Positions 398 to 49,060 of a DNA stretch of 64,000 bases are shown here, one piece after another. The stretch comes from Ulota crispa. Taxonomy: Eukaryota; Streptophyta; Bryopsida; Orthotrichales; Orthotrichaceae. The notes under the pieces are model-generated. The model was not told the DNA's origin and ran no database searches. It saw only the letters and a list, made by a program, of their open reading frames with translations. The position numbers and the translations under genes were made by a program. Position 1 is the stretch's first letter. Every line of letters begins with the position of its first letter. The stretch is from NCBI GenBank assembly GCA_963920765.1, contig OY987249.1, positions 1,738,501 to 1,802,500 on the forward strand, read 5' to 3'.

Positions 398-1322
398 TTA
401 ACCCCTAAAGGACCAAGCCCTTTTTTCAGTGAAAGTTATTGAAAACTGCCACTTTTGGGGGAATGAGTACAAAGATAGGAAAAACAATTATTTTTGGAAA
501 TCCAACCATAAGATGTTGCCCTAGACTATGGGAGGTAATTGTGGGAAAAAAATTAGCTCATTCTAGATATAGAGGAGTGAGATATTGACTTTTGAAGTGA
601 AAAAAAAAGTTTTTTTCTTTGCTGCCCAAAAATTTCAGAAGCCTTTGATTGCCTCTAAATAAAAAAAAATGCTCTACGCAAATGTGAGGTTTATTTTTCC
701 CATGTAGAAGACCAAGTTAGGTAAGTGTGGGAGAATTTTTAAATGAATTGGAGGTGTGAATCATATTTTGTAAAATCCTGCAATGCCATAAGGCCATCAA
801 ATTTGCATATATACTAGGCAAAATTGGAGGATTTATGTAAAATTGTGAAATGTGAATTGCTTTGATCCAAATGATGAAAACCAAGGAATCTTAGTCTACT
901 ACAGCAAGGAAAAAAAAAAGTCAAAAAACAAATTCACAAAGAGCACAAAAAGTATAGCACCAAAGGCAAAAGGAATGGAAGTATGGGAGTTCCGTACCTA
1001 CCCGCAAACTAAAACTTTTCAATCATAAGTTGGAATTGAATGATTCAAAGCTCCCCACATATGTATAAATCTAAAGAACCAATTTCAGATTTTTATTTTT
1101 AGAAAAGTTTTTAGCTGCCCAATCTCCACCTTTTTGCAGATTTTCATGCATAATTTCTTCAATAAATGTCATAATGAAGAAAAAATTAGATGCCCACGTA
1201 GGTTTTTGAATTCCTCATCTTCCATAAAAGTTTCAAAAAATCATGCAAAATAGTTTAGTTGTAAGTACATGCCCAAAATCCCAATTGTCCCCCGAGGGGA
1301 CAGTTGGTCCTTTAGGGGTTAA
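398..1322. mobile_element. TTAA-flanked MITE, family with CCCCTAAAGG ends, 925 bp
   Basis: The element starts TTAA-CCCCTAAAGGACCAA and ends in the exact reverse complement, TTGGTCCTTTAGGGG-TTAA, so TTAA sits at both borders. The interior is AT-rich and has no ORF of note. The same internal sequence is found in inverted order at 24709-26669, and its right-hand third recurs in both arms of 40249-40970. The TTAA target and CCC-type ends resemble piggyBac or Sola3 transposons. No transposase is present, so the superfamily is an inference. Confidence 0.7.
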
Positions 1323-1810
1323 GGATTAAATCTAAATCAGTCACATGTAGTTTATCTTTTGTGTCACAAAAGGTAAGCTATCTATGACTTACTTAGATTA
1401 AGTTGTAAAATGACCACCTTGTGTACATACAAACGCTATTTAGGTGAACTTGCCTTTCTTGATAAAAGAACCGATCAAAATTCTTAAATTTTGTATAGTG
1501 TGTTATGATATAAATATTGGAAATATATTGCGCATGCCTGTGATAAATCAATTAAAAATGGAAAATGACTAGTTTTAACTGGTGAAACTTTTGAATTCTC
1601 CCCAAATAGAATGTTCATATGTATTACTAGTGTACGGACACACACTTTGAGCAAATTGGAGATGTACTAGCAATGCAGCATTCAACTTTATAGAATATCA
1701 ATATCTCACAAATCAATTGGTCTAATATCTAATCTTGATGTACTTTACAAAAATTAGTATTTCACAACTAGTTTAGAATTTAAGTAATTTTGATGCATCA
1801 TTGTTAACTA

Positions 1811-2172
1811 CTCCCTCTATCCCAAAATGATCTTCGTATTGACCTTTATTTAGTGTCCCAAAATGATCTTCTTGTTGGAAGAGGAAGGGAGTTAGTGACA
1901 CTTGCACATAGTCCAAAAGCATGGGCATGCTAACCAATCCCATGCCATCAAGTGAGTGGCCACTAGTGCTCTTCAAAAATGCCTCAAAAATTCAATTTTC
2001 AAGCACTTTGACGCCACACTTTGAAAACTAATTTGAAACTCAAAATTTCAGAACAATAGGAGGACATCAAACTCTATTCATAGGTAAAAAAAAAATTGAA
2101 AAATGGTTCTTTTCAAGCGTAATCTATAACATTTTGTGTAACAAGAAGATCATTTTGGGTCTGAGGGAATGG
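1811..2172. mobile_element. Stowaway-like MITE (Tc1/mariner)
   Basis: The left end reads TA-CTCCCTCTATCCCAAAATG. The right end is an inverted, slightly degenerate version (CATTTTGGGTCTGAGGGAATGG-TA). CTCCCTC..CCCAAAATGAT with a TA target is the usual plant Stowaway terminus. The subterminal motif AAAATGATCTTC occurs at both ends and again just inside the left end. The interior does not code. Confidence 0.8.
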
Positions 2173-2179
2173 TAGTTAA

Positions 2180-2309
2180 TTGGTCCAAATCAAGCAATTC
2201 TAATCTACATAAACATGTCCTAATCAACACTACTATGTTCAAAATGCCCTAATCAAGAGGTCCAAATTAACACAATATTGTTGATTTGGGTCATGTTTTC
2301 TTGTAGTGA
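2180..2309. mobile_element. Degenerate CACTA-type mini-element
   Basis: The right end carries TTTTCTTGTAGTG, the standard reverse-orientation terminus of plant En/Spm (CACTA) elements. The left terminus is not intact, but AT-rich subterminal sequence is weakly inverted relative to the right end. It follows directly on the Stowaway element. Confidence 0.45.
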
Positions 2310-2385
2310 TAATTTGGTTCTTTTTTTAAACCAAAAATAGTAATTTTTTTTTCATCACAATTATACTCTTTAAATTTTTTGCTAG

Positions 2386-2660
2386 AGGGCGTTTGACATT
2401 TTGTTGGTTTTCTAGCATATGGTTAAAATGCTTTTGGTGTTTTATATTTGGGGCACTCTTTATAGTTTCAACTTCCACCAAAATCTTCTAGAAGATTTTG
2501 GAAAAGGACATAGTTGGAGGATGCTTGGTGTTCTATATTTAGGACATGCTCTATTGCTTTAATTTCCACTAAAAAGTTATAGAAGGTTCTAGAAAAGGGT
2601 GGAAAGTTGTAATCCTCCCACTTAGCATTATAAATTGTTTTTGGTATTTTAAAAATTGTA
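2386..2660 (-). mobile_element. Decayed relative of the Helitron at 24980-25265
   Basis: Read on the minus strand, this region matches the Helitron body (ACTAAGTGGGAGG..CTTTTCTAGAACCTTCTA..), including the paired CTAGAA motifs and the internal duplication. Neither a clean TC start nor a CTAG end was found, so the borders are approximate. Confidence 0.45.
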
Positions 2661-5423
2661 GCCATAATTTTTTTTTTCAAAAGGAGGAGTGTAGTTTTTT
2701 TATTTATTTTTTCTCTCTAAATTACATGTAACAAAAAATTCAAAATTTATTAGAGAAGCAAAGTTTTGGCATTGTGACATCAAAGTAAAATAACAAGATT
2801 GGCAATACATCACAAACTATTATGCCAATAAAAGGCAATACAAATCTTATAACAAAAGGAAAGTTCACGACATTCTAAACTTTGCACAAACTATTTGACA
2901 ATATAAAATCCAATACACCAGAGCAATTATTAGCCAATTCGTATACTAATACAAATTATCAAATAGCATAAATACATATTTTTTTGATTGAGCCAAAACT
3001 CTATGAAATCACAAATACCAAAGTGGCATAAGTCACCAATCACAAGGGTCTTGAATTTGTGCCCAATTGAACACAAAAATCACTAGAAAATAGTGGCTTA
3101 GTGACACTTTCTAAAGTTTCAAAATTGCTAAGTAAGCATGGCTTTTACTAAAAAGATCAATAAAAAAACAGTTCTACAACTTGAATTCAGAGAAAGTAAA
3201 CACAAACGTTTCCACAATGTTTTTTTGAATGTCAAGGAAGAAACGAGAAGTATTGAGACCCATTGCATTGTAATCAACCCATATTATGAACTAAACTATG
3301 TTTCATAAATGGGTCTTTGTGGACCATCAAAGGTACACAACACTTTCTCTTTGGGATACTCAATCTAAAGGGGAGTGCTAAATCATGAGTAGGGAGTCAT
3401 GAGCTAGGCCGTGAGCCATGAGCCTAGACTTTTTGTCAAAAATTAAACTTCACCCATAAATGGGTACTTAGGACCTTATAATTGTGCATTATAAACATTC
3501 ATCTCTTGAAAAATTTTATATTTTTAAAGTTTTTTCATTGATTTTAAGCTTAAATTGGTTCCCACTCACAAAATCTTACAAAATCTTGACCCACCACTCA
3601 TAAGCTCACCAACTTATGTTCACAAAATACAATAGCATTGTCCCTTCCATATACTTTGTTAAAATCTAAAACCTAATTAATATTACTTGAAAGCCAACTT
3701 GGCTACATAAGTGATTTTATCCAAAGTTATTTAGTTGTGAAATTGTTGGGTGTGATGATTAAATAAAAATAGAAGCAAAAGATGAGGCATGGCTTGGATG
3801 AAAGAAACTTTGGCCCAAAAGCATGGCAATTGTCTATATGGTGTTGTTATTGTCCTAATTATATTATGAAAAGAATAAAAGGACAATTCATTATCGACTA
3901 CAATCTTGAAATTTTGTGATCAAAATTTGGCTCTCTTGACTTCAAATGCATAATATTAGGCGGTTATAAATTCAGATAATTTTTGGAATTTTCATAAGTA
4001 TTAACGCTTTCCTAAAAATTTAATAAAAAGAGGTTTTTATTTGTCAATTTAGAAAATTCTCTTCATTGTTTATCATAGAATATGAAATTACCTGAGAGGA
4101 ACAATGGCAACCATACCCCTTTGCAAAAATTTCACTAATTACAATGTCTTTTTGTAAAATATAGTCATATAATAGCAAGATGACACACATTGTGGGCCTA
4201 AATTTCTTTCATTCAGTAGGGATGGTCTTCGTCCAAATGCATGATTATAATGAATCATTCATAGATGCCCAAATCAACAATCTGTCCACAACGTAACCCT
4301 CTTATTTATGTGTGAAAGGTTTTCACTAAAAAATTGTCATCACTTTTCTAGAAATCAAGTGCACATGAACTTTTACATAATGAAACTTGCCTTCACACGT
4401 GTCTACAATCTATTCACTGTAATTAACACAATGCTGTTTTGAAATTGTATGTTTATCATCTACATAGTGGATGTTGGCTAGCTTATGGGGCTTCACAGTG
4501 TATCCCATGTCCCACGTCCCATGTCCTGTTAAAATTTGAGAATCTAATTGGTGCAAAGTCAAAAATTGAGACTTGGTTCTTCACACTATGTTTCAAGTCT
4601 TAGGCTACATTTTGCTTTCATGGCAACATTTTTTGAAAATTTTGACACTAGAAAAGGTGGGGATTTTCTCAAAGTTTAGGTCAACTTTTTGCTCAAAGTT
4701 CCACTAATTTTTTGGCATTAAATATTGGTGACTTTCTAGAGTACTCATTTTTGTCCTTAACAACCCAATGATGTTGGGATCTTGCATTAAGGTGGGACTT
4801 GCATGGGTAAGATATGGGACCTAGTGTCATGCGCCCCTAAGGTATGTTCACCCTTGATGTTAAGAGTGATAATTGCAAAGAAAAATTACATACATTTGGA
4901 CACACTTTTAGATTGCATTCATATTGTTAATAACCCTCCTAACGCTGAGTTTGAACATACTTTGGAGATGAAGATAACACATAACACACAACTCACAAGA
5001 TCCCTCCCCTTCTTTTCTTTTTTTTCTTTTTTTTAGTATTTTTGTGTAATTTCTTATTGTCTGTTTCTTCATCGTTTTTCCTATAGTTTTTTTCTTGATG
5101 CTCTTCTGCATTTATTTTCCTATTCTAAAAAATTTCTTCCAATTGAAGTACGGTTTCAAGACATGACAACAATATTGCATTCAATATCCTCCATGCCCGG
5201 GTATTACGGAGGTCAAACCAGTGAGAGACACTGACAAGGAACATAACCAGAATAGAAGAGGTTTTAAAGTTCTGACTTCTGAGCAGTCAGACAAAAACCA
5301 GTATTGTCTAATGCGGCTAAATTTAGCAAAATTATATTTGAATTAATTTACTAGCTTAAAAAACGAGAATGTTCAGGTTTTATATTTGAATTTTCTGCTG
5401 CGGCAAAATTTGCCTAAATCTTA
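2661..5423. other. Non-coding AT-rich stretch with one MITE-like repeat
   Basis: No splice-compatible ORFs, RNA genes or recognisable protein fragments were seen. The only structured item is a repeat at about 3377-3635 of the family whose ends read GCTATTTTGTGAGC. Related copies lie at 12252-12488 and 60073-60308, with internal matches such as the GACCTTATAATTGTGCAT region. A pyrimidine run near 5005-5035 is simple sequence. Confidence 0.5.
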
Positions 5424-5454
5424 GGGTCGCTTTACATATGGGGGCAGGGTCTTA

Positions 5455-6632
5455 GGGTCGCTTTACATATGGGGGCAGGGTCAATTTACTCTGTCAGAGG
5501 TCAAGAATCCTCACTTGTGATTGGACAAAAGGTTGAAATCAGCCCCAGCCCCTTTACACTTAAAATAAAGGTCAATTTGGTGGAATGAATTTTTTATTTA
5601 ACAAAGACAAGATCTGACATGGTCCGAGCTCATTGAATTGGGTGCACCCAAAGTGGGAGGCCAATTCTTGGCCTTGGGGCCAATGTCAAGTTCCATTTTT
5701 TTAAAATCATAAAGTATTATTTTTTTCTCCAATAGAATCAAATATACCAAAAGCTAGGGGGCACGAGAGAAGCCAGGACATGGGGGGCATGGGGGCATGG
5801 GGGCACAGGGGGGCATGCGGGGCATGGGGGGCATAGGGGGCATAGGCTTGTATATTTTGTATCTATTTGCAAATCATTTTTTCCTTCTATGCTTCTCATC
5901 AAGTTTTTACATAAACCTTGCATATATTGATATATTGATTTTTTTTCTATCATCTTTTATGCAAGATACTCTTGATGATCTGTAACTCATAGTATTTAAT
6001 TTGCTAGATGCTATCCAATTAAAACTTGAATTTTGGAAGAACTAATTAGTAGGCACAAATAATATAATTGTTTTGTGGTTGATGTAAAGAAAATAAATGA
6101 AGGCAATTGGTATAATATACCTTGATAATGTAAACAAAAAACTTAAGAGTTTGTTTCAAACTTCATGTTTAGGGTTCATGCACATTTTGGCAACATCCCC
6201 CTCTGCCCAATTCTATTTTTTTGGTGTCTATCATCATGTCATTGTTTCAATTTAAAAAATATAAAGTAAAAAAAAAGTAAAAAGTAAAAAGTAAAAATAA
6301 AGAAACTAATTCATTTAAAAATATATTGTGGCCTATTCTCACTTTACATTGCAACAAGAAGTCACTATCTCCAAAGGCTAGCTTTTTGAAAACAAGCCAT
6401 GGCCCATAAGAGATTTTTGTCACAACTTCTCACCTCTAGTGTAAAGATGGCTTAACTTTATTGAATTGGCCCAATTCCTTGGCCTTAAGGCCTTTACATA
6501 TGAGACAACTGGCCCCCACAATAATCTTATTTTAATTAGTAGTGGAGGCCGGCCTTAAGCAAAATGTGGGTTGAAATTTGAGGCAATCGGCCCCAAGCCA
6601 AATTGGCCCGGCCTCCATATGTAAAGCGGCCC
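5455..6632. mobile_element. PIF/Harbinger-like element, 1.18 kb, TTA target duplication
   Basis: The left end is TTA-GGGTCGCTTTACATATG and the right end CATATGTAAAGCGGCCC-TTA, giving inverted termini and a 3-bp TTA duplication, as expected for PIF/Harbinger. The first 31 bp including TTA are duplicated in tandem (5421-5451 and 5452-5482), so the left border could also be 5424. A second copy lies at 41337-42507 in the opposite orientation with similar length and internal order. The element carries the G-rich minisatellite at 5757-5847. No transposase ORF was seen. Confidence 0.75.
5757..5847 (+). repeat. G-rich minisatellite (GGGGGCAT)n
   Basis: The block contains about nine runs of four or more G separated by CAT, CAC or CATGC units. 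It lies inside the Harbinger-like element; the equivalent place in the second copy (about 42155-42180) has only two or three units on the opposite strand. The short ORFs that cross it are low-complexity artefacts. Confidence 0.85.
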
Positions 6633-6639
6633 TTACTTC

Positions 6640-6870
6640 AAGTTGCCTTCAAGTTGTCACCAGCTATTGTAACAGTGAAAAATGTTGTGCAAGAATGAAT
6701 AAAATTGTCAAATCCCTCTCCAAACCAACACCAAATTCACCAGAGTTTGGATAAAATTTATTAATGTTAGTATGTTTTATAGATGAACATGCACATGTTG
6801 ACAATTCTATCTAGTTTTGTTCAATATTTCTTTACCTCCTTACATTCTTGGGTGCCGGCCGCTCTACCCG
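6640..6870. repeat. Dispersed repeat R1, copy 1
   Basis: A roughly 230-bp sequence is shared with 11540-11780 and 39545-39805 in the same orientation and with 25770-26010 reversed. Shared landmarks are AAATTGCCAAGTCCCTCTCC-type sequence, a block around ATGAACATGCACA, and in this copy and at 39780 a terminal GGGTGC(C/G)GG(C/T)CGCTCTACC. It does not code; the repeat class is unknown. Confidence 0.55.
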
Positions 6871-7928: not shown

Positions 7929-7929
7929 T

Positions 7930-8353: not shown

Positions 8354-8673
8354 TTAAGGTATGGACACCCATAAGCGTCAAACTAAGGGTTTTGAACATG
8401 ATGAGTATCAAAAAACTGCTAGCAAACTATAAGATCCTATTAGGAACAGAAAAAAAATGATTTTGCACATTCAAATGTATTATTTGGATATTGTGAGAAT
8501 AAGTTGTGAATTTTTAAAAAGCAAACTGCCATTGCACCCATAACCAACACTAAGGTTTCATATTCACATGTCGTACATCCTTATAGTTACATCTATACAG
8601 TTCCACAAATTTTCCAAATTTTTAGAGGTGACGGTTATGGGGACAGTGGTGCTTATGAGTGTATATACCTTAT
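8354..8673 (-). mobile_element. MITE family with GGTAGGAACACCC ends, copy 1
   Basis: The copy is about 320 bp and inverted relative to those at 9710-10029 and 30224-30542. Its ends are TTAAGGTATGGACACCC and GAGTGTATATACCTTA, a degenerate version of the family terminus. The interior, including the ACATGTGAATATGAAACC region, matches the other copies throughout. There is no coding content. Confidence 0.75.
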
Positions 8674-9709
8674 TGTTTTTTGGATCCTGCCTCAGTTGAT
8701 CAACTGGCAAGGTGTCGGTTTTAGGACCTCCTACTTTGCGTGAAAATTTATTGCCTGCATATGCAATACAATCAGACTTTACGCACATGATGAGGTAATG
8801 AATATGCTCCCCTTCTCTCACCAACCATCTCCTTCCATGTTTTCTATCATTTTTCTCCTATTTTGAAAAACGTGGTAATTGTTTAGCATTTTTTTTATTA
8901 TAGTTTCTTTACTTGCTTTTTTTCCCTCCCTAAAGTATCAAGCGACATCACCTATGAACCAAAATAATTGCTCAAAAACGATTTAGAAGCTCATTTTGGC
9001 AATCAAAGTGTACAGTCTAATGCAATTTTATAGCAATCGAAATGGTCATGTATGATGTTTTATACTTGAACACAGGTGAAAAGAGGATAAAACTTTCAAA
9101 AACAATCTTTTGTATTTAAGTTTGTAATATGAATATGACCTATGTATGGTTGAAAAGAAAAATACCACAATGTAAAGAGTTTTTTCTTACATGAAAATGA
9201 TGGATCACAATGGCAGTAACAAGATTAGATTTAAAATAACCAAAATTGCCGGGGGTTTTTGTTTTTCCCAATGAACAACATTACGATAAGAACGTGCATA
9301 AACAGTTGGTTCATAACAATTACAAATGTCCACCATCTATTAAATGACTCAATTATAGTCATTGTGGATATTTATGGTTATTGTGGAATAATCATTTGGG
9401 ATATGTATTTCTTGTGGTGCAATTGTTTAAACAAATTAACAACAATACAAAGTTCACCTTGGCCAAGAGAAAAATTAGGAAATTATGTGATTATCAATGG
9501 ATGCACAACTGTGAAATGGATAAAAAATTTGGGTGCTAAAAAAAACTATGATTTAGATTTAGATTTGACACTTGAGTAGGTTTCGTTGCCACCTACTCCG
9601 TAAAACAAAGTATGTGCTTGTCATTTTATGTCATTTTGATGCAGGCAGCCCAATCGCTTTTATTTGTGGTTCTTTACTTCTTTCTTGCAATAAAGGAGAG
9701 TGCAAGATA
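8674..9709. other. Spacer between two inverted MITE copies
   Basis: About 1 kb is bracketed by inverted copies of the same 320-bp MITE. It contains a 106-codon open frame (9259-9579, plus strand), hydrophobic at the start and acidic at the end. I recognise no domain in it and the base composition does not differ from the surroundings, so I do not call a gene. Confidence 0.4.
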
Positions 9710-10029
9710 TTAAGGTAGGAACACCCTTAAGTGTTAGTGTCCCCATAACAATCACCTCTAAAATTTTGGAAAATTTGTGGAAGTAAATAGATGTAGTTAC
9801 AAGGATGTATAACATGTGAACATGAAATCTTAGTGTTGGTTATGGGTGCAATGGTAGTTTGCTCTTTAAAAGTTCACAACTTATTCTCACAATATCCAAA
9901 TAATACATTTGAAATTGCAAACTTATTATTTTTCTATTCCTAATAGAATCCTATAATTTGCTAGATGTTTATAAATAGTCATCATGTTCAAAACCCTTAT
10001 CTTGACGCTTATGGGTGCTCCTACCTTAA
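9710..10029 (+). mobile_element. MITE family with GGTAGGAACACCC ends, copy 2
   Basis: The ends are TTAAGGTAGGAACACCC and GGGTGCTCCTACCTTAA, with about 17-bp inverted termini and TTAA at both borders. The copy is 320 bp and matches 30224-30542 along its length. The target duplication could be TTAA, TAA or TA. Confidence 0.8.
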
Positions 10030-10555: not shown

Positions 10556-12251
10556 TTCCAAACTACCTACCTTACACCAAAAGATAAGTGACAAAATTAC
10601 ACAACTCTTTTTTTTTTCAAAAACAAACTTTATCCTGAAAGGAAAAATGAAGGGTTTCAAAGAAAAATCATCCCAACATTTTGAAAAATATGAGTTGATG
10701 GTCTTGGATGTGGTGAAGCCACTATCTACATAAGGGCGTCCTCAGCCCTGCCGGGATGAAGGTACAATATTGGTATTAACCCTAAACGCCCAGCTAACCA
10801 TTTTCTGATTGCTGCCCTTTTTGCGGGCTCCCGGAGATGAAAACATATTTTTTTTGAAAAAATAAAATAAAATTTCATATAGGAAAACAAGTCCTCTTTC
10901 CAACTCAATTTGAATTATGTCAATTTAAGTTAAACTCCATTAAAGAGAAATTTCTAAAGACAAACATTTCAATATTTGCTAGTGTAATAAAATTTACTAT
11001 TTCGGAAACTAATGATGTCCTCTCCTTTAAAAATATTGCATTTTTGAGTTTAGAATAATTTTTTAATTTTTAACGAATCATACCAAATTTCAAATCATAT
11101 AAATACAATTTGTGATTTTGGCAAATATTAAATGGTAAATGTTTCTAAATTCATTAAATAAGAGTCCAATTTTTTTTTTTGAATGTTTGACTGCATGGAT
11201 AATTACTAAACATCATGATTTTGGTTTTCTCTTTTGAAGAAAACTTCATAAAAAGTTACAAAAGTATCATTTTATAATGCATCTCTATTTTGTCCTTATC
11301 CCCTTGGGCATTTAGGGGTTAAGGAGGTGGATTCAAGCATAATTTTAGAAGAGGAAACTTGCAAACTCCAAAGAGCTTGTAATTATCAATCTCAATGATA
11401 AGTACAACTTATTTTTTGACAAATCCTCCTCCAATTCTTCCGTCCCTCTCACAATCAGCCTCTCCAACCATGTGCTCCTAGGATCCTGGCTATACCAAAG
11501 CCAAATGCACATCTGGGCTGCAAACTCCTTTAAGCAATTTTTAAATTCCTAGCAAGTTTTTGCCTAGATTTTACTCCAATTTTGGACTAGTTACTATTAC
11601 ACTAAAAAAAACCATGTGAAAAATGGATGGAATTGCCAGGTCCCTCTCCAAGCAAACACAATGTCTACCAAATTTGGATGAAAGCTACTAAACTTAGTAT
11701 ATTTTATGAATGAACATGCACAAGTTGTTAATTCTATCCATTTCTATCCAAATTTTTTGTACTTGCTTGCATTGATGGATGCATGTAGTGTGACTAACAA
11801 AAAGACAAAATTTAAAAGCTGAAAGAGATCGCTACAAAAACTGCACCCCTCTTACTATTTCCAAGGCTCATACCTGTACCTCAACTGAAGACGCCCTAAG
11901 TTATCTTCCCACGAATTGTGCTGAAAACCCTGCAATAATCTCCTCCTGGGGGGCATGGCAATGTCTGACTATCTGCAAGGAATGGAGCTTGATGCCGGCA
12001 AGTTTGTTATGCCAGGGAAACCAGACTGCAGGATCATTGGATGACATGATGACTTATCAGATTTCTCACTTGATCCAGAATGAGACCGTGCTCCTCATAA
12101 TTCCCATTCTTGAGGGCTTGCTATGCTGCACATGCGGCTCAGTTTTACTGCACATAAGTTAAATGTTTGTGGGTGGGGCCAGGATGGAAAATATCTGATT
12201 TTTCATCCCAAAAAACGTAAGAGTTTAGAAATTTACCGAGTTACTGACTAC
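10556..12251. other. Non-coding stretch holding R1 copy 2 and one TTAA-element end
   Basis: R1 lies at 11540-11780. A lone right-hand terminus of the TTAA family (GCATTTAGGGG-TTAA) ends at 11322, without an identifiable left partner. A slightly GC-richer patch at 11870-12170 has no open frame or splice structure that could be trusted. Confidence 0.45.
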
Positions 12252-12539: not shown

Positions 12540-13910
12540 TCATTTAAAAATAAAATAAAAAACTACCGCAATAATTAATGGCTACAATTATTGCAGAGAT
12601 CAATATCTACTTATTTAGAGTAAATGTCAAAGAACTAGTGAGGGGCAACCCAAATGCAATGTCTACTGTAGTTCCACAAACTTGTATGTGTAATAAACTG
12701 AGCCTGCACATGCGGTTTTGTGGGCCTCCAACTTTTTTTTGCAAACATGAGTACAAGTAAGAATCTGCCTCTATTATATAGGTGATCAATTTTATCTCCT
12801 TCCAGAGCTCCAGTCTAAATCCTAGCCTTTGAATATAAGTGTAAATTCAAAATTCCCAAATTCAATCTCACGATGATAAATTTTGAAACTCTTTCATTTT
12901 CTAGTAGGTGAGGTTTTTCATGGTGACCTCACAAACACCTTTGTGCATTATATGCCAAGCCATTCTTGAATACTACATTGAATATTGCATTTATGTTGCC
13001 TTGACAATTAGGTTGCCTTACCTTGGTAAGTTACCTCACAACTTATCACTTGATCACTTGGAGGTGCATGCAACACACTAAATATTTAAATTTCACACAG
13101 TTTATGATTTGGAAGTCATGAGTTTGTCTTTTTGCAGTTTCATTGTTATCTGAAAATGGTTTATTGCACTAATTTTTAATGAAAAACATTATAGCAGCAG
13201 TAAATATTTACATAGAGTGAAATGTCCAGAAATTAGTGTGGGGCAACCTAAACGCAATATTCAGAGTAGTACATTGCATTGGCAATAAATTTTCAGTCAT
13301 GAGCAGTCCCCTTTCATATTTTGGTGTGTACTAGAATGGCAAAAATAATTATTACTGTGAAGCCACGTATTTTGGTATTCATGTGTATTTTGGATATGTA
13401 TCATTACTCCAGATACTGTAGTTAGGGTGTCTTTCAGTATAGGTGGCCTTATTTTCACGAAAGTAACCCTAACGGATGTTGCTGTATTGTATATGATTTT
13501 CTGTGTTGTATACGGATGGTACATTTGGGTAGCACAAGAATTCCATTGGAATTATAAATTTTAAGACAAGTCATAAACATATTATATGTCAACTAGGATT
13601 TTTTGGAGATTTTTTTACATTTGTCATAAAGTCATTTTTTAGTTCTTGTATGCATACAACCAACACTTTTAATAGGCAACATCCTTTAAGGGTTGACTCT
13701 GTAAAAAATGTATCGCTTTCTCAATACATGGATGACATGTGGGATTTGGACACATAAGAATGTAAATTCTCTCTGCAATCGTAGCCCGTTTCAAGTTTTG
13801 TGTTTGTATCAATATTGTAGTACCAAAAATAAATATTCTGTGCAGTGCGAATGTTGAGCAAAATAGCGCAGGGCAACCTAATGAGCTTATTTGGTGATTA
13901 CTAGTTATTT
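12540..13910. repeat. Cluster of short related repeats with a GGGGCAACCTAAATGC core
   Basis: Three local segments (about 12560-12700, 13150-13290 and 13800-13900) share a motif of the form AGTG(T/A)GGGGCAACC(T/C)AAA(T/C)GCAAT near TAAATATT sequence. Inverted and direct relatives occur at about 45240-45350 and 45480-45540. They look like remnants of one mid-repetitive family. No gene was found between them. Confidence 0.4.
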
Positions 13911-16140: not shown

Positions 16141-16519
16141 TTTCCAAAAAAATGATTTGCAATCCAAATCTTGGATGAATTTGTAAAATACAAATTTTCA
16201 TTCATATATACTTGCCTTGGTTCTTGTACTAGTTGAGTAACATTTGAATGGTTTGGTTTTGCATAATGTTTTATTAGTATTACGTAGATCAAAGATTGAA
16301 GTATGTCAAATTTAAAATCGTAACGTTTGTAATTTAAGTAGTGACCATAAAGAACACGCTTTAAAAATCAAGCTTTCAGAGAGATTCATAAAATGAATAA
16401 GTCTAATACTTTTAGAATCTAAGATTTGTCATTTAAAGATATAATTAACTTTTGAAGGGATTATGAACTTTAAGTTTCAAATTTTGTTTATTTATAACTT
16501 AGGTGATAACAATAGTGAA

Positions 16520-17423
16520 TTCAATTGTACAGTACCTAAAGGAAAGAGTACATAACACTCTTTTATGGCATCCAAAGAAGTATGTATAACTTATGTATAA
16601 CAAAGAATATAACTGACATTTCATTCTCACATTTTTAATATGAGATCTTCATGCAATCTTGATCAAGCATATCAAATTTCAGTTACTAAAATCTAAAATC
16701 CTATTTTTGGTAAATGATTTTGTGTCAAAATCATGGTTTTACAAGAAAGTTGATTAATAAATAATGGTGATGAATTTTTGAGATTTGATTGCATGAATAT
16801 GTAGGAGACATCCATATGCACATCTTCCTTTTAAATAGACATTTCCAAAAAGGATCAAATTTCCTTCTGTAGAGGTTTTCATGTTAGGGTGATCATGACC
16901 AAATTTAGTAAAATACATATTTCTTCATGGAAATTAGTTTTTGGCAAAAAAAACATATCATCATGTTTAAAGTTACAAACTTAATCACAATGTATGAGTC
17001 AAATAACAAAAACTAATTTCCATGAAGAAACATGTATTTTACTAAATTTGGTCATGATCACCCTAACATGAAAATCTCTACAGAAGGAAATTTGAATTTT
17101 TTGGAAATGTTTGTTTGAAAGGAAGATGTGCATATGGTTGTCTCCTACATATCCATGCAATCAAATCTCAAAAATTCATCACCACTATTTATTAATCAAT
17201 TTTCTTGTAAAACCATGATTTTGACACAAAATCATTTACCAAAAATAGGATTTTAGATTTTAGTAACTGAAATTTGATATGCTTGATCAAGATTGCATGA
17301 GGATCTCATATTAAAAATGTGAGAATGAAATGTTAGTTGTATTCTTTGTTATACATACTTCTTTGAATACCATAAAAGGATGTTATGTACTCTTTCTTTT
17401 GGGTGCTGTATAGTACAATTGAA
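16520..17423. mobile_element. Long foldback element, 904 bp
   Basis: Two arms of about 415 bp (16520-16942 and 17007-17423) are reverse complements with few mismatches and are separated by about 64 bp. The ends carry TACAGTACC..AAAGAGTACATAAC and its inverse. A relative with a deleted left arm lies at 50743-51294. No ORF is present, so it is a non-autonomous foldback element. The target duplication is not clear. Confidence 0.85.
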
Positions 17424-21228: not shown

Positions 21229-21460
21229 TTAACCCCTGAAGGGCCTTTCGGCTGTGGAGCTACGGTACCAAATACGGTCACAACCAATATTTAGAAGTTT
21301 GAATCAATTAGAAATTAAGTGTTACAACTATACATATTGAAGAGTTATATGATGATAAGTGCATAAATTTTTTTGGAAAGCCCTTAAAACAGTTCAAATA
21401 CGTTTGTACATACGGCCATACATATGACCGCAAAAGGCTTTCATAACGTTTAGGGGTTAA
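21229..21460. mobile_element. TTAA-flanked MITE, 232 bp
   Basis: The left border is TTAA-CCCCTGAAGGGCC and the right border is CGTTTAGGGG-TTAA. Subterminal motifs with GGTAC and ATACGGTC are partly inverted. It has the family's TTAA border rule but an interior unlike the long members. Confidence 0.65.
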
Positions 21461-22237: not shown

Positions 22238-22602
22238 TTAACCCCTAAACGTCAAGGAGGACAAAAAACGTCCTCCAATTCTAAAAAAAGATTATGTGAT
22301 TTAGAAAAAAGACGTTTTTCATCTGATTTTTTTTCAGAAGTGACCATAAACACATGGTTCATCATGGAAGACAAAAAATTACCTCTTGAGATGCTTTTTT
22401 TTTTTGTAACCCAAATTGTGATAAGATTTAGAAACATGGTGTTAGCTCCCAAGCTGCCCTTCTTGCAATTTTTGTGAGGGCACAATGCTTTGTTGACTTT
22501 TCCAACTTTTTGAGGCAATACTACTGATGCCCATATGCAAAACACTGTAGACTACTACAAGTAGGACAAGCCATGGTGATCCATCTGTCCTTTAAGGATT
22601 AA
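22238..22602. mobile_element. TTAA-flanked MITE, 365 bp
   Basis: The borders are TTAA-CCCCTAAACGTC and CTGTCCTTTAAGGA-TTAA. The interior matches 30539-30895 in inverted orientation (AAAAAGTTGGAAAA, TTGGGTTACAA and GTGACCAT/ATGGCCAC regions), which supports the borders independently. Confidence 0.75.
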
Positions 22603-24708: not shown

Positions 24709-24979
24709 TCAACCCCTAAAGGCCTAAGTGGTCCTTGGGGGCTAAGTGGAGTTTTGGGCTTGTACTTATAGCTAAATTATTTTGTGTGATTTTTTGAAAT
24801 TTTTATGGAAGGTGAGAAATTCAAAAATTTGTGTGAGACATCTAGTTTTTCCTTCATTCCAACATTTGTTGAAGAAGTTATGCATGAATTTCTGAGAAAC
24901 AAGGGAGGGCGGGCAACCCAAAAACTTTTTAAAAATCACATTGTTTAATTTAAATAAAACGTGTAATTGGTTCTTTACA

Positions 24980-25265
24980 TCTATACTACTAAGTCCCTAA
25001 GTGCGCCCTTTTCTAGAACCTTCTAGAACTTTTTGTTATAAGTTGAAACAACAAAGGACGCCCAAGATATAAAACACCAAATGCCCTCCAACCATGTCAT
25101 TTTCCAAAAATTTCTAGAACTTCTCGGTCAAAGTTGAAATAATAAAGGATGCCCCAAACATGAAACACCAAATGCCCTCCAACCATGTGCTGTAAAACAA
25201 AAAAAATGTTAAGCTGCATCATCCACATATGTCCAACTCATGCAAATTGTGTGCTTGTATACTAG
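24980..25265 (+). mobile_element. Non-autonomous Helitron H2 nested in a TTAA element
   Basis: The element begins A|TCTATACTACTAAG and ends ATACTAG|T. A weak stem (CATGCAAATTGTGTG) precedes the CTAG end. Without it, the flanking sequence reads on as in the paralogous element at 40249-40970 (GTTCTTTA..ACATATATGTGGGA), so the insertion borders are visible within the window. Related decayed copies are at 7355-7928 and 2386-2660. Confidence 0.82.
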
Positions 25266-25344
25266 TTTATATATATGTGGGAGCTTTGAATCATTCGGTT
25301 TTGATTAATGAGATGAAAGTTAAGGTGCTTTGCTCAAAAAACAA

Positions 25345-26025
25345 TCCTTGTCAGATAATGAGTCCCATAGGTAGCCCAAGAATGGATATGAGGTAGTTCT
25401 TGAACAAACCCTCATTAGTCTTAGTAGAAAAGGTGTCTTTTATTGCAAGAGCCAATCACACTCATTGATTTCACCTCATCTTTGTATAAGTTGTAGGGGG
25501 ACGGTTTATGGGAGACCTAGACTCACAAATAGGTGCCTACTACAGAAATCTTTGAAAATTCATCAACTATCCAATAATGCTTCAAAAAATATGAAAAAAT
25601 TGTGTTAAAATTAACATCCATTTCTCTTTGTCTAAAAATTAGTCAGAAAATCTTTATGTCTTGAAAATGTCATGAAAAAAAAGATCAGCACTTAAACTAT
25701 TGCTTTTCAAGGAAACAACTTTACAACATGGTTTAATTTATGTTTTTGTCAGGGTAGAGCAAATTGCACCTTAGAGTGCAGGTAGGTAAGGAAAATTTAG
25801 CTAAAATTGGAACCAATGAATGATCATCAAAAGTTCATCCAAAAAACTACTAATATAAGCTACTTTCATCCAAAATATGGCAAATTGAGTTTTGTTCAAG
25901 TACAAATTTGGCGGTTTCATCCAATTCTTCAGTGGAATTTCTTTGTGTATTAGTAGCCGGCTGACATTCAAGGTAAGATTTAGGCAAATTTTTCCAAGAA
26001 ATTAAATGCTGCCTTGCGATAAGTT
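25345..26025. repeat. Block holding R2 copy 2 and R1 copy 4
   Basis: Positions 25350-25710 match 10175-10555 in the same direction. Positions 25770-26010 match R1 in reverse. Together they interrupt the host TTAA element, so both families have inserted, possibly as one unit. Confidence 0.55.
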
Positions 26026-26422
26026 TTAGTTTGCTAGTAGGTATGGGACTCCCAAACCTCCATTTCTAGTGCCCCTTGTAAAATTTGGTGCTTTACTTTT
26101 TGAGCTCTTTGTGTATTTGTTTCTTGATTTTTTTTTCCAAGTTGTAGTAGACTAAGATTCCTTGGTTTTTGCTTTTTGGATCAAAGCAATTCAAATTTCA
26201 TAATTTTATATAAAATCCTCCAATTTTTCCTAGTGTATATGCAAATTTCATGGCCTCACAACATTGCAAGATTTTTCAAAATATGATTCACACCTTCAAT
26301 TCATTTGAATTTCTCCCATACTTATCTAGCTTAGTCTTCTATATGGAAAAAATAAACCTAAACTTTAAGTAGAGCATTTTTTTTTGATATAGGAGCGGTC
26401 AAAGGCTTCTAAAATTTTTGGG

Positions 26423-26427
<5 letters not shown>

Positions 26428-26463
<36 letters not shown>
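26428..26463. repeat. (TA)n microsatellite
   Basis: About 18 uninterrupted AT/TA units lie inside the TTAA-family element at a place where the paralogue near 200 has a short A-run. This is a probable length-variable locus. Confidence 0.95.
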
Positions 26464-26465
<2 letters not shown>

Positions 26466-26669
26466 TTCACTTCAAACGTCACTATCTCACTCCTCTACAT
26501 CTAAAATGAGGTGATTTTTGTCCCACAATTACCTCCATAATCTAGGGCAAGATCTTTTGGTTGGATTTCCAAAAAAAAATCTTTTTGCTACCTTTCTACT
26601 CATTCTCCAAAATATAGCAATTTTCAGTGACTTTCACAGAAAAAAGGGCTTGAGCCTTTACGGTGTTAA

Positions 26670-37067: not shown

Positions 37068-39544
37068 TGTGTAGCACACTATCAAACAAGAATGAATGCT
37101 GGTGTAAGCCTCTAATCCCAGCTGCTAAGTAAATTGTATAGAGTTAGAACGTAGTACGCCGGCTGTGAAGTAAACTGTAAAGGGGTAGAACATGTCAAAC
37201 GCCCGATAAAAGGTAGATAACGCATGTCACTGTGTTCACATATATTGCCCTGAGGAGAGAGACTTCTGTTATACGCCATCTTGAAGTGTGAATCGTTATG
37301 GGATTGTCGATGCCATCCTGCATAGGTGAATAATTTAATATATCTGGAGTTTTAAGAGAATTATGTGTCATAACATCCTGAGCGTATTTCGTTACCTCTA
37401 GGGTTATCTTATTGATATGCAGGCTTGCTGAATCATTATGGAAATGAAGTTATGGTGGTCCTCTGAGACAAGGTATTGTGGTGGGCAGTGAAATAAATAT
37501 TCCTGTCATATTTGTGTTGCTGTTCTGCTTTTGTTGCACTCCATATGCTCTATGATCACCTGTTTTGCACCATAACTTAAGACTGCGTTACTGTACTGAG
37601 CAGACAAGACTGACCTCATGAAGTGTGGATGTGTAGTAATCACTAATCAATCATACTTTTAGGAGAGTAATTTTCCTCACTTATTCATGAATCATTGCTT
37701 GACTTAAATTTCATTTCTTGCATTGGACTCTGAATAATCAATCACAAATTCACAATTAAGTTATGAGCAGCTATTATTATTGACACTAGAATTAAGTTTT
37801 GGCGTAGTTAAGATTTGAGCACTCATTGTTGACACTGCCTTGGGTACTGGCACCTAAATACGAACTGTATATCATCACTGATTAATCATTGGTAAATTGG
37901 TGCTGTTGCTACCTGTACTTCCATCAGTCATGAATACGTGCACTTATGTGAGTCCACAGTTTTGTTCGCTTACCGTGCTTCTGTGTGCTTGTGATGTGTG
38001 CTTTCTATTTATGGGGACCATGCTCACTATCAATTATTGGTGCTCAACTCAGCTGAACTTTGACAACAAGTAGCTGTCCATGTTCATGTCCATTTTTCAG
38101 CCAAAGTTCCCTATTTCCACTTTAGCGGTCTTTTTTTTGTGGTGCCAATTATAGATGGTCATAATTCATATTGTAGAGTGGTCTTATTGATTTTGCATTT
38201 GGAGTCCTTTAACCCCTGAGGAGAAAATGGGGGTTTAATGGCCATCACAGCTTGGAAAATTACATTCAAAAAAAGTGATTATAGGATTTAAAAAAGGACT
38301 ACCTTCTTTGTTGATGGGGACCAGCCATGACTGTTTTCACCAAACAAATTACAAATTAAAAAAAAAAGTGAGATAAAGTTGTGGGCCCCAACAACAAGAT
38401 CATGTTGCTTGGACGTTTAAGGATTAATCACTTGCTTTGGCACTAGAATGATGTTTGCATAGATTATTGCAAGAGAACTAAGTGCACTATGCAAATGTTA
38501 TAAGACCTTTGTTGTGAGATTGGGGTTTAGGTACTGTGTATTTGCATTGGTTGGTTTCAAAATACAATTATTACTGTCTGAAATTCCAGTTGTTGGTCAA
38601 AACCTTGCCATGTGGTGCACTCTCTTTGTAAGTGGTTCACTTTTCTTGAGATTGCAGAATGGAGACTATTGGGGTTGATGTGGAAAAGTTCCACCTAATA
38701 GTTCATGGAGATTTTACCTACCTCAAGTAAATAATACATGGTCTTCAATGCTGAAAATTCAATCACGTACTTTGTGATTGGAGACAAGTTTTTATTTGTT
38801 CCATGATAGAAACTTGCGTTTTCCCTATTGAAAAATGAAGAGCAGATGAGATATTAATTATACCTAGTCTTTTAAACCCCCTATTTGTCCTTTATTCTAG
38901 TTTTATTGTTGAATGCATTTGGTATTGAGCACTTCTCTCTAAATCTCTTAAGTCAGGAAATTAACAAGCAATGAAACTACTTCTGTCACTAATATGGTGG
39001 CAATAGCTTATTAATTAAGTAAAAGGGTATATTCAATCTTCTCCACAAGTATTATTACGTCATTAAAGTATCTGCACCCACACACCTTTAATACCCTTGC
39101 AAGAGCACTTGGCATGGTTGCTCCATTTGATGTGCCTCACTACAAATGTACCAATGTCCTATACAAGACAAGGCTTGCTCAATTGTAACTCAAAAACTAA
39201 AATGTCCAAGAGTTGTATGATTCGTTAGCGCACCCAAGTTCAAGACAGATGGAACTTACTAAATGGTCCATTGAAGAGGGGCCGCAATTGAAACTCGACA
39301 CTTGTCCTCTATGATACGCTCACAATTCCTTTTAATACCTGCTTGAGGGTAAGAGTGAGACATCTCAGATTTGAGGTAGTGATTGTGGATACACCCTCAA
39401 CACTTGCTTTCAAGAGCTCCAAATTGCATGCAAGGGTGCAGATGCTCTTAAGCCAGTAACCCTTTAGAGAGCCAACAAAGCATGATTTCCTTTGTAGTAC
39501 TGATTTGGCAAACTATCTTGAAATCCCGGTGACTCGATCACTGT
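37068..39544. other. RHF 3' region and following intergenic DNA
   Basis: The 3' untranslated region probably extends a few hundred bases; a possible polyadenylation motif AATAAA lies at about 37492. Beyond it no gene is seen. One TTAA-flanked MITE (38209-38427) interrupts the stretch. Confidence 0.45.
38209..38427 (+). mobile_element. TTAA-flanked MITE, 219 bp
   Basis: The borders are TTAA-CCCCTGAGGAG and GGACGTTTAAGGA-TTAA. It matches 23282-23518 in inverted orientation across the full length, which fixes both ends. It is the shortest member of the TTAA group in the window. Confidence 0.78.
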
Positions 39545-40021: not shown

Positions 40022-40054
40022 ATACCCCGATTCTCACCGGAAAGATACCGTTTC

Positions 40055-40248: not shown

Positions 40249-40970
40249 TTAACCGCTAAAGGATCACTTGTGCCTATGAGGGACAAATGGGATTTTGGGC
40301 ATGTACTTATTGGCTAATCTACTTTGTGTAAAATTTTGAAACTTTTACGGAAGATGGGGAATTCAAATATCTTTGTGGGCATTTAATTTTTACCTCATTC
40401 TGACATTTAATAAAGAAATTAAAAATGAATTTATGAGAATTTTTGTTTGGCAGGCAACCCAAAAATGTCTTTAAAGTTTGCATTTTTTTAAAATAAAAAT
40501 TTGAGGTTAGTTCTTTAGACTTACATATATGTGGGAAGCTTTGAATCATTCAATTTTGATTGATGAGATGAAAGTTATGAGAAGTTTTAATTTGCGTGTA
40601 GGCATAGTTTTGGGATTTTCTACACCTACATGCAAACTAAAACTTCTTATAACTTTCATCTCATCAATTAAAATTGAATGATTCAAAGCTTCCCACATAT
40701 ATGGTAAGTCTAAAGAACTAACCTCAAATTTTTATTTAAAAAATGCAAATTTTAAAGAAGTTTTTGGGCTACCCTCTGAACAAAAATTCCCATAAATTCA
40801 TTTTTAACTTCTTCAATAAAAATGAGGTAAAAATTATATGCCCATAGAGATCTTTGAATTCCCCATTTTCCATAAAAGATTCAAAAATTTACACAAAGTA
40901 GTTTAGTCATAAGTACATGCCCAAAATCCCATTTATCCCCCATAGGGACAAGTGTTCCTTTAGGGGTTAA
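40249..40970. mobile_element. TTAA-flanked foldback element, 722 bp
   Basis: The borders are TTAA-CCGCTAAAGGATCACTTG and CAAGTGTTCCTTTAGGGG-TTAA. The whole element is an inverted repeat of two roughly 350-bp arms meeting near 40615. Each arm equals the right part of the element at 398-1322, so the foldback probably arose by inverted duplication of one end. It begins 228 bp after the tRNA gene. No ORF. Confidence 0.88.
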
Positions 40971-41107
40971 ATTATGGTGTATCAATATTTTTGTGTATAA
41001 ATTGCAATGTTATTGATATACAAAGCTTGCAAACACATTTTCAATAATGCCTCATTTAACTAAATCTAATCTAAGTAAAGTCTTGAAATAATACAAGATT
41101 TGTTATA

Positions 41108-41282: not shown

Positions 41283-41336
41283 CTTTAATTTGATTTGTTG
41301 CAATGATGGCAATTGTGGCCAAGTTGTTGTTACTCA

Positions 41337-45240: not shown

Positions 45241-45981
45241 TCTGAAGTACACTAAATAGTGCATTTAGGTTGTCCCACACTAATTTCTCAACATTTTACA
45301 TTATATAAATGCTTACTGAAACTATAATAATTTTCATCAACAATTAATGCAATAGGGGCCTGACAACAGGGAAAAATAAACTAGCAGAGTTCAGGCCATG
45401 AACCATGTGAAATCCTAGTATCCAAAGAGTCACATGCGCATCCAAGTGGTCAAGCAAAGAGTCATGAGGTAACTTTCCAAGGTAAGACAATATAATTGTT
45501 GAGGCAACCTAAATGCACTATTTAGTGTAGCCAATATATTTTCAGGTTCCATGGTAAAAATGACTTATGAGAAAGCCACCTACTTGTATATTCATGTGTG
45601 TTTTGGAAAGAAATGATTTGTTCATCTATTTAGAATCTAAATCTGACAATTTCATTCAATAATTTATCAGGAATGGAAGCATCTGGCAATGAAGCTCTCG
45701 ATTGTAGGCTCATTATATAGCCAGATTATATTAAATTGGTGCAATCTGGCTCTATTTCGCTTTTTAAAAACAAGGCTTGAGCTGAAAACATATAGTCAAA
45801 TCCACTGCCTTGTTAAGGCATTGGCTCCTTCCATACAACATCCGTTTTCAAATTCCAAGTAACACTCAAAGCACAGCTCGTCATACATGAAAAATTAGAA
45901 AAAAGGGCAGTATCAACATAAGGTATCGCTGCTTGACTCTACGACCAGAAAAGAGTGTAAGAAGACTTACCCTGTATGGCA

Positions 45982-47252
45982 TTACTGCAAGGTCTTCACA
46001 TACTGATCTAAAGTTGCGTTGAAAAGCTCGCACCTGCCATTACCAGCAAACCATCATTACACGCAAAAAAAAAAAAAAAAACAACAAACCTTCTGCGAGT
46101 GTAACAATCTTCACACAAAGCTAACAAAATCTGAAAACGATCAAAACAAGCCTATTCTAAAGTGCACATCACATGGCGTTGCTTAGAATAGGGGAAGATT
46201 TAAACACCGAGGACTTACTTGAAGGGCTGTCCAAGCGAGTACAAAGGATTCTTTACTACATACTCCACATAGATGTTGTTGTAGATGAATTTCAAAGCTT
46301 CTCGAAGATCTCCCATCCTGGGATCTGTAACCAATATCAGCTGCAAAGAAGATCCATCCATTTATGTTAATTCCATAACTTGAAGTGACAAAAGGTTTGC
46401 AGCTGTGCAAAGCAAACCCTAAAACATTGACATATCACGGTTTTAAGTGCAAAGCCAAATCCAGACCCACTGAGATATCATGGTTTCAAGTGCAAAGCAA
46501 ACCCTAAAACACCCAGATATCATGGTTTCAAGTGCAAAGTAAACCCTAAAACACTGAGATACCATGGTATTTAGTGCAAAGCAAACCCTAAAACATTGAA
46601 ATATCATGGGTTTAAGTGTAAAATATATAACTTTAAATTTGTATTATCAGGATCAATGAAGAATACTGCATTATACTGACCAATTCACTTGAACAAGTTG
46701 CGGATATTAGTCATTAGTCAAAACATGAACCCTAAACCCCAAACCCAAAAAAAACTATGACTCTCAAGTTGGATTGATTGGTTGGTTCTGGAGGGGGCTA
46801 AAGAGGGTTTTATAAGCTCAATGCCGATTTACCTTGATGCCAGACGGCGATTCCATAAAGCTGAGCTTGTAAGTGTTGGTGCGAAAGCTGTGAAACGAAC
46901 AGCCTTGTCCGGGTAAACTTGGCAACCCGAGGTTACCCTTATTACCACTGCAGATCACGAGAACACAGTCAGCATTGCAGATCACGGGAACACATTCAGA
47001 AATGGTTAAAGAGAAGAGAAGGGTAAAGAAAGAGGAAGAGGAAGAGGGAGAGGAGCGAGGGGCGCACCCGACGGGATCCATTTTGGCAGCGAAGGACTTG
47101 AGCGAGAAGAGAAGGCCGAACATGAGCTTCTGGTCTTGCTGCTGACTAAGCGTGGTGTGAGGTCGCATCCACACGTGGTAATGCAAGCACACCCCGTTCC
47201 GGTTGAAGATGTACATGCATCGCATACGTGAGGTCGGGGCAAGTGCAGCCAT
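45982..47252 (-). CDS. BET5: TRAPPC1/BET5 trafficking subunit (4 exons, 157 aa)
   Basis: Core subunit of the TRAPP tethering complex, which works as a Rab/Ypt1 GEF in ER-Golgi and Golgi traffic. Coding exons on the minus strand: 47252-47068, 46947-46833, 46340-46219, 46033-45982. GT-AG introns, 474 bp in total, no frameshift. Family landmarks in order: MYIFNRNGVCLHYHVW, QKLMFGLLFSLKSFAAKMDP, GQGCSFHSFRTNTYKLSFME, SPSGIKLILVTDP, GDLREALKFIYNNIYVEYVV and a C-terminal CELFNATLDQYV. This is a longin/profilin-like Bet5 fold with no catalytic motif expected. The start could be M1, M10 or M13; M1 is taken because it is the first ATG, but family N-termini are short and variable. Intron 2 has a telobox-bearing tandem repeat. 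A strong donor (GGGTAAGT) lies about 11 nt after the stop, so a 3' UTR intron is likely. Confidence 0.94.
46404..46615 (-). repeat. 42-bp tandem repeat with AAACCCTAAA in TRAPPC1 intron 2
   Basis: About five imperfect units contain GTGCAAAGCAAACCCTAAAA and a GATATCATGGTTT half. Each unit carries the plant telobox-like AAACCCTAAA on the plus strand. It lies wholly within the intron 46832-46341. Confidence 0.85.
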
Positions 47253-47576
47253 CGCTGGTGCGACGCAATCTCAGCTTGGTAATGGCGAAATCTCAGCTCG
47301 GTGGTGGCGGAGAAAATGAGGTACAATACATCGGGGGGTGCACGGAAGAGGAAACCCTAATGACAGAGTTGAGATCCGAAAGGAGTGAGGTCGAAATTCA
47401 AAAGAGTCGGGGGGCGAAGACGGAGGAACTCGAATGCCAACATTTCTGTCTGCGACGGTTTCTCCGCCACGAGAGAGAAGAGAGAGAGAGCGAAGAAACC
47501 AAGGCACTTCGGACGAAGTGGACGAAGAGAAGCTGGTTTTTCACCGACAAGTCTAGGCATGGATTTTGGAGTTAAC
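47253..47576 (-). promoter_or_regulatory. TRAPPC1 5' flank and probable leader
   Basis: This is 324 bp between the start codon and a MITE, and is the most GC-rich part of the neighbourhood. It includes a CT-rich stretch on the coding strand (47470-47490). No clear TATA box was found. Antisense open frames such as 47228-47575 are composition artefacts. Confidence 0.45.
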
Positions 47577-48155
47577 TTAACCCCTAAAGGGTGTTACTTA
47601 CCAAGTGTTGGTTGTATTCATACAAGGACCATTTAGTACTTGAAGAAATGGTTTTATGACAAATGTCAAGAATTCCCAAAAAATCCTCATTGATTGATAG
47701 TATGTTTATGATTTGTCTTAAAATTTACAACTCTAATGGGATTCAAGTGTTATCTAAATACCCCATCCATATACAACACATGAGAGCTTGTACAGTGGTG
47801 CTTGGTTAGCGTCAACACTTTGGGCTAGTAAAAAGTGTTGACCTTATCCAAGCATTGATCATAAACAAACCTTCCATTTGTATTACTTTCCCTAGTTCTA
47901 AGGGTTGCAACTTTGGAGGTGCTTTCCCACCCAAGTTTTTGGTACACTAACCAAACGCCTTTCTAACTAAGAAGTCAAAATGGGAATTGATGAAAAGAAA
48001 ACGTTGACCATAGGCAAGCACTTGACCTTAACCAAGCTCATAATACATGCTTTTGAGCAAAAGGGGAGTGGAGCTAAGATCTTACCCAAATGTTGCTCTT
48101 ACAAAGGTTGACACTAACCAAGCACCACAATACAAGAACATCCTTTAGGGGTTAA
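47577..48155. mobile_element. TTAA-flanked MITE next to the TRAPPC1 promoter
   Basis: The borders are TTAA-CCCCTAAAGGGTG and CATCCTTTAGGGG-TTAA, 579 bp. Inside, at about 47795-48128, is an inverted pair CAGTGGTGCTTGGTTAG../..CTAACCAAGCACCAC. It belongs to a second family that also occurs at 58145-58339, so one element may be nested in the other. Confidence 0.8.
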
Positions 48156-48180
48156 GCATGGAGTTAATAAGGATCTTAAC

Positions 48181-49060
48181 TCAACCCCTAAATGCCTCAG
48201 GCACCCAATTTGGGTGCTCATGAAACTTTGAGAACATGTTGAAGGCAAAGGTTTTGTTTTTTTAATTTTTTTGGAGAAGTTGCAGTTTGAAGTTAGCTTT
48301 AATGTCCAGTTTGAATTTTCTCCATACCACATTTCAATAGTTTTTGGCGGAAGCTAAAGTGCAAGCATACCTCTTGCACATCAAAAAGTGTGATGATAAT
48401 AGTGTCACTAAAGAGCCTATGACAAGCTAGTTGCCACATTGGAAAAATAGGGAGCAAGTTGAGAATAAAGTGAAGATTTCCCTTGGGCAATGAGGGCCCT
48501 TTTACTAAAATTTCATCATTTAACAAAATCTAAATGTGTTTTTGCACTAATTTCACTTGGAGTGTTTTTGTTATACAAATTAGAATTCATTTAAGGTTGA
48601 GCTCTCTTTTGTTCATAATTATTTTTGGTTAAATACCAAAGCTAAAAGCTTTCTTTATATGAGGTGGGATAGTTGCATTGCAAGCTCATTTATAAAATTG
48701 TGATCATGGATTTGAAACGGGAGTCATTAGTTTTGAAGAAACAACAATAAGTACTAAAGCATTGTAAGTGGTTGTTTCCCAATTTTGTACTTAAAAAGTT
48801 GCCATTTTTGCATTAGAAGTTTTAGGTGGCTAAATAATAAACAATTTTTTTGTACTCATCCACATTCAATCACAAATATCTTAAAATCTATGTGATCTTT
48901 TTGAAAATTTTTAGGTAACACCATCTAAAAGCCTTGAAGTTCAAAATCCTATGGTTACAATTTTGTTTTGATGTTTGATAATGATCATATAAGGACAATT
49001 CAAAAACTTCAAAATTGCCTTCCAAAACAAGAAAATTACCTTTGAGCATTTAGAAGTTAA
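48181..49060. mobile_element. Probable TTAA-family element, 880 bp
   Basis: The borders are TCAA-CCCCTAAATGCCTCAGGC and TTGAGCATTTAGAAG-TTAA. Ends are about 70% matched. It starts 25 bp after the previous element. The interior does not code. Confidence 0.5.

Follow-up and report, generated by a model that had tools for sequence, protein, structure and literature searches.

Short TTAA-flanked elements in a land plant genome, probably that of a moss, as likely non-autonomous members of several piggyBac families

For the short TTAA-bordered repeats in the window (the whole stretch of 64,000 nucleotides that was analysed), the best explanation, with a probability of about 93%, is that they belong to several families of the piggyBac superfamily as non-autonomous, MITE-like elements, the host being a land plant and probably a moss. 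The superfamily was assigned to piggyBac because the genome carries genes matching the Pfam profile PF13843 (DDE_Tnp_1_7), including genes in two longer copies (L041 and L042) that have the same ends. The original prediction had proposed either piggyBac or Sola3 and had left the mobilising transposase an open question; two copies whose ends are of this kind carry a PF13843 transposase, which provides an answer to that question and supports piggyBac with high probability. piggyBac, a TTAA transposon and common genetic tool, is known mostly from animals, and the new findings here are copies that carry a transposase between proven ends, how many and how varied they are in a plant, and a conserved region upstream of the transposase.

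The window contains 18 matches to the 14-bp terminus TTAACCCCTAAAGG (allowing up to two mismatches) against 0.65 expected, and none of 100 shuffled versions of the window reached 18 matches at this threshold. The genome-wide check that had been advised for this terminus bore out its abundance, as 15,411 exact copies of the 14-mer are present in the whole 275-Mb genome (7719 forward and 7692 reverse), compared to a single occurrence (one forward, none reverse) of the same letters read backwards. The elements have inverted repeats of a CCCCTAAARG-type consensus that are symmetric around TTAA, and terminal inverted repeats beginning with CCC, a hallmark of piggyBac, are thereby present. Many of the window ends face one another as pairs, and those at 11309, 13683, 13909, 18674, 19994 and 29673 (up to two mismatches) have no partner. 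A literature search with the letters of the terminus retrieved unrelated titles only, among the matches listed. The features of the window, with the mismatches to the terminus at the left and right end, are as follows:

3–397: portion of a relative of the 398 element in inverted orientation, its terminus split by the element at 398–1322
398–1322: 925-bp non-autonomous element, mismatches 0 and 0
21229–21460: 232-bp element, mismatches 1 and 1
22238–22602: 365-bp element, mismatches 1 and 2, relative of the 30539 element and of elements in L007, L043 and L040
23282–approximately 23493: inverted relative of the 38209 element, right end decayed and end coordinate approximate
24709–26669: inverted relative of the 398 element with approximately 1 kb of other DNA inside, right end TTAACACCGTAAAGG
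30539–approximately 30898: inverted relative of the 22238 element, right end decayed and end coordinate approximate
38209–38427: 219-bp element, mismatches 3 and 3
40249–40970: 722-bp near-palindromic element, mismatches 1 and 0
47577–48155: 579-bp element with exact ends (0 and 0), interrupted by a repeat of another kind of approximately 338 bp
48181–49060: 880-bp element, mismatches 2 and 3, non-autonomous relative of the 5.7-kb transposase-bearing L042 element

Ten elements had been predicted to share one rule for their ends and TTAA borders. This description stands for seven of them, which have both ends within three mismatches of the terminus (exact at both ends in 398 and 47577), while it has to be relaxed for the remaining three (23282, 24709 and 30539), each of which has one clear end and another that is decayed or lost; all three align to relatives. 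By BLAST, bases 9–408 of the 398 element align to window positions 400–3 at 83% identity, and its bases 1–623 and 698–923 to positions 26669–26018 and 24936–24711, respectively. Similarly, bases 11–219 of the 38209 element align to 23483–23282 at 83%. The 40249 element has inverted arms and is 86% identical to its reverse where the two align; no relative of the 21229 element was present among the sequences fetched for BLAST comparison. Where four or more unrelated interiors had been claimed, BLAST thus yields six sets, i.e. 398 with 24709 and partly 40249; 22238 with 30539; 38209 with 23282; and 47577, 48181 and 21229 each on its own. The reported size range of 219 bp to 2 kb is correct at its lower limit (the 219-bp copy at 38209); its upper sizes are inflated by nesting, because 24709–26669 holds approximately 1 kb of other DNA and 47577–48155 a repeat of approximately 338 bp.

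The elements are discrete units with fixed borders. When the 398 element was searched against the genome (40 of 9453 first-look candidates scored, yielding at least 43 matches among those listed), 40 of the 43 listed matches covered the element exactly from its first to its last base (1–925), and identity was 90–96% for the 39 top matches besides the element itself.

Additional repeats were observed in the window. The repeat inside 47577–48155 (at approximately 47791–48128, with ends GTGGTGCTTGGTTAG...) is MITE-like and of another family, with 91–94% identity in 38 of 60 listed genome matches. Positions 13502–13696, absent from the earlier list, constitute an inverted partial relative of the 47577 element (bases 3–204 against 13694–13502, 76%). 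Further long inverted repeats are located at 8354–10029 (arms of 326 nt) and 16518–17420 (arms of 260 nt).

The PF13843 profile gave at least 120 matches in the genome among those listed (best 1.3e-73), a lower bound as 116 of 528 candidates were scored, with a few matches representing two pieces of one gene. The listed matches are spread over all of C1–C11; the window itself has none among the matches listed, and no match was obtained in 14 control genomes. The L042 transposase piece matches the profile at 2.6e-59, and at E ≤0.01 its only PDB matches are piggyBat (9c0f, 1.7e-16), the best of them and distant in sequence, and 6x67 (3e-13), which, together with 6x68, we take to be the Trichoplusia ni piggyBac transposase. 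None of the L042 pieces matched any Tc1/mariner Pfam model, and a Cys-rich tail is visible in the C-terminal piece, a part matched by no Pfam model. In 36 aligned transposase cores, with the catalytic columns assigned via what are presumably D268, D346 and D447 of the T. ni protein, Asp occurs in 33 of 36, 27 of 36 and 18 of 22 rows (the latter being those that reach the third column), and the DDD triad that is a hallmark of piggyBac is accordingly found in these cores under this assignment of the columns. The cores are diverse, with pairwise identities of 24–88% (median 35%), nine groups by single linkage at 50% identity, and a tree in which 21 of 33 inner branches are well supported. Two divergent matches, C1:1180709-1181995 and C8:19570986-19572215, lie in stop-free reading frames of 563 and 472 aa and are possible candidates for domesticated piggyBac genes.

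The original prediction had advised looking for a longer copy with the same ends and a DDD/DDE transposase. Two such copies were found, L041 (8.0 kb) and L042 (5.7 kb), each with a PF13843 transposase between such ends. Of the 120 listed transposase matches, 110 hold at least one stop, a point against the favoured reading, and present-day mobility of any copy would be conjectural. Among eight ten-kb loci (L039 to L046), L041 and L042 are the two with ends proven by an empty site or by copies. A search with the whole L042 element (5746 bp) gave 29 places that match its two ends only, on one strand and with a span of 904–1064 bp, 28 of which start at L042 base 1. Of 33 matches to the L042 3′ end without the transposase, 31 stop at base 5746 (82–92% identical), and this 3′ end is shared by three further transposase-bearing copies, which extend to bases 5746, 5744 and 5741. 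The 48181 element corresponds to the L042 3′ end over bases 305–880 (78%) and to the 5′ end over bases 3–119 (69%), with end scores of 39.5 and 78.5 against shuffled maxima of 15.0 and 17.5.

The two unlike ends of L041 match those of L001 end for end, and those of the 398 element in reverse, with scores of 25–37 against shuffled maxima of 15.0 and 12.5 (a shuffle is compared with one random end, whereas the real score is the highest among 26). L007 is among the best matches for the L041 3′ end, and both ends of the 40249 element are of the L041 5′ type (scores of 26.5 and 27.5, shuffled maximum 15.0). By these sequence likenesses, two window families are tied to two transposase lineages. Between the 22238 element and the element proposed in L039 there is a weak likeness (16.0, against a shuffled maximum of 11.5) that gives only a hint of a relationship, and 21229, 22238/30539, 38209/23282 and 47577 would be placed in piggyBac from their ends and TTAA borders alone. 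A search of 1.5-kb flanks at 30 transposase loci detected no paired ends; both proven copies are longer than its reach. For L039, L040 and L043, the proposed end pairs are weak: ends taken from different loci reached a score of at least 10/12 in 13 of 56 combinations, compared to four of eight for ends from one locus. For this reason, score-based pairing of ends around transposases was not kept as proof. Among the ten-kb loci, no convincing end pair was detected in L044, L045 and L046.

It might be argued that, although the ends are piggyBac-like, the host has domesticated the transposase genes and the short elements are old relics unlinked to them. The stops described above and the two open, divergent gene-like places on C1 and C8 would suit this explanation, yet it is improbable, given that transposases reside inside elements with the same ends, one of which is flanked by TTAA on both sides, and that the listed PF13843 matches occur on all of C1–C11.

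The comparison of empty with occupied sites, also advised in the original prediction, revealed TTAA on both sides when a site is filled and once when it is empty, for both the L041 insert and the 398 element. On C7 (L057 and L041), a relative of the window element at 48181–49060 is split by an 8033-bp insert which begins TTAACCCCTAAAAGCCC, ends GGGCCTTTAGGGGTTAA, is flanked by TTAA (host positions 701–704) on both sides and carries the L041 piggyBac transposase; an element of approximately 0.9 kb is apparently nested inside it. Uninterrupted relatives contain a single TTAA at this site in six of eight distinct places and differ by one base in the other two (the nine aligned rows represent eight places, as L042 and L047 are one place, and two of the six, L049 and L050, stem from the duplication of a single segment). 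At the second empty site, the 398 element sits in the internal TTAA of the end of its inverted neighbour (C8:1737962-1738900, 79% identical), and joining of its flanks restores the neighbour's terminus TTAATCCTTAAAGGATCAAGCC, in which the insertion point reads as a single TTAA. The host family of the C7 case also harbours a third nested insert, at L046 8562–9478; at that site the relatives are without an exact TTAA.

A duplicated TTAA target, another hallmark of piggyBac, is therefore seen at the L041 insert and the 398 element, where duplication of fewer bases inside TTAA would leave an identical picture. As the empty sites fit duplications of 2, 3 or 4 bp alike, it is the symmetry of the ends and the piggyBac gene inside that decide for TTAA as the duplicated unit. 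Furthermore, variants in the first and the second T of TTAA number 654 and 679 genome-wide against 15,411 exact copies, and this equal rarity is as expected if TTAA is one unit. Sola3 and Kolobok are other superfamilies with TTAA target sites, and the TTAA duplication fits them equally well; nevertheless, it is very improbable that the elements belong to either and are moved by another transposase, since the transposase in two copies with these ends is a PF13843 piggyBac protein and that of L042 has piggyBac-type PDB relatives only. Least credible is a reading as elements of the Tc1/mariner type (TA) or the Harbinger type (3 bp) whose target preference is fixed on TTAA and whose ends include the extra bases. 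The empty sites would agree with it in not separating the three duplication lengths, but against it stand the outermost T, varying as rarely as the second (654 versus 679 of approximately 16,000), the symmetry of the ends around TTAA, favouring 4 bp, and the piggyBac gene inside L041 and L042.

A DDD transposase, excision via hairpins and joining into TTAA are known piggyBac biochemistry, and they form the basis of the mechanism proposed for the favoured piggyBac reading. The DDD transposase would bind the element ends, the element would be cut out via hairpins and then joined into a TTAA, and excision could restore a single TTAA. Short copies without a gene would be moved by the transposase from longer copies.

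The T. ni piggyBac element, the ends of which are of the CCC type, is similar to the elements described here with respect to its PF13843-type transposase with DDD motifs, its TTAA and these ends. The two proven transposase-bearing copies differ from it in their size of 5.7 and 8.0 kb, compared to 2472 bp as given in a passage of PMC10140906; further differences are the conserved coding region upstream of many of the transposases and the plant host. According to an excerpt of PMC11707139, the host of piggyBat is a mammal. A section of a 2008 grapevine paper states that only five cut-and-paste superfamilies had been reported from plants, piggyBac not being among them (PMC2528002), while passages of later reviews include PiggyBac among seven angiosperm MITE superfamilies (2023; PMC10004981) and list it among plant superfamilies (2024; PMC10794571). 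The angiosperm piggyBac-type MITEs are alike in kind to the present elements, the passage in PMC10004981 giving no transposase-bearing copy or empty site. Repeat tables excerpted from two further papers contain 1230 PiggyBac entries (0.00%) for Ceratopteris (PMC6890710) and one for Stipa (PMC8319324), and passages of two animal papers refer to piggyBac as known from plants (PMC10813416; PMC10140906, citing Bouallegue 2017). The MITEs of two coral genomes (PMC2872659) are a MITE group from an animal host, described in a paper whose excerpts often name piggyBac-like elements. A literature search for piggyBac in mosses or bryophytes yielded no report in a moss among the matches listed; a Niphotrichum moss paper was rejected, as 'piggybac' there is part of 'piggybacking'. 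The diverse transposases and more than 15,000 exact ends indicate a land plant genome heavily shaped by the piggyBac superfamily, which supplies plant-resident transposases and ends for study and suggests that TTAA-flanked repeats in bryophyte annotations may merit re-examination. The host was judged from C157, a plastid contig of 112.5 kb with psaA, psaB and rps14. In the PDB, the psaA protein comes closest to 8htu (1733 bits) and to 6l35, 7ksq, 7kux and 7xqp (1712.8 bits), presumably all from Physcomitrium patens, with 9lut (1697.7 bits) and 7wfd (1650.6 bits, presumably from Arabidopsis) scoring lower; this bears out a land plant and makes a moss likely.

A conserved coding stretch of up to approximately 120 residues is located upstream of the transposase in five of the eight ten-kb loci (L039, L040, L043, L044 and L045), and none was detected in L041, L042 and L046. 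The L043 version (L043:2471-2905) matched 90 places in the genome, itself included. Of these, 38 are followed on the same strand, no more than 10 kb downstream, by one of the listed transposase matches (36 at 1.4–4.5 kb). The corresponding figure is none with strands flipped and one with the order reversed, and 500 random placements gave 0.23 on average and three at most; the other 52 have no transposase so placed among the matches listed, which is not evidence of absence. The region has no match in Pfam except one at E 0.15 and no credible match in the PDB (best 0.09), and in the L042 family the upstream frame is another one, rich in Glu and Gln. The conserved region may be a separate gene or an N-terminal exon, and as such raises a testable question. 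A broader proposal, which we regard as possible though somewhat doubtful, is that mosses host an old and diverse piggyBac branch, many lineages of which would encode an upstream second protein or N-terminal part acting in transposition, and which would have given rise to MITE-like copies in the thousands, if not tens of thousands. On the other side of the transposase core, a long simple repeat reading HTYI in frame lies just downstream in L041 (L041:5773-6393).
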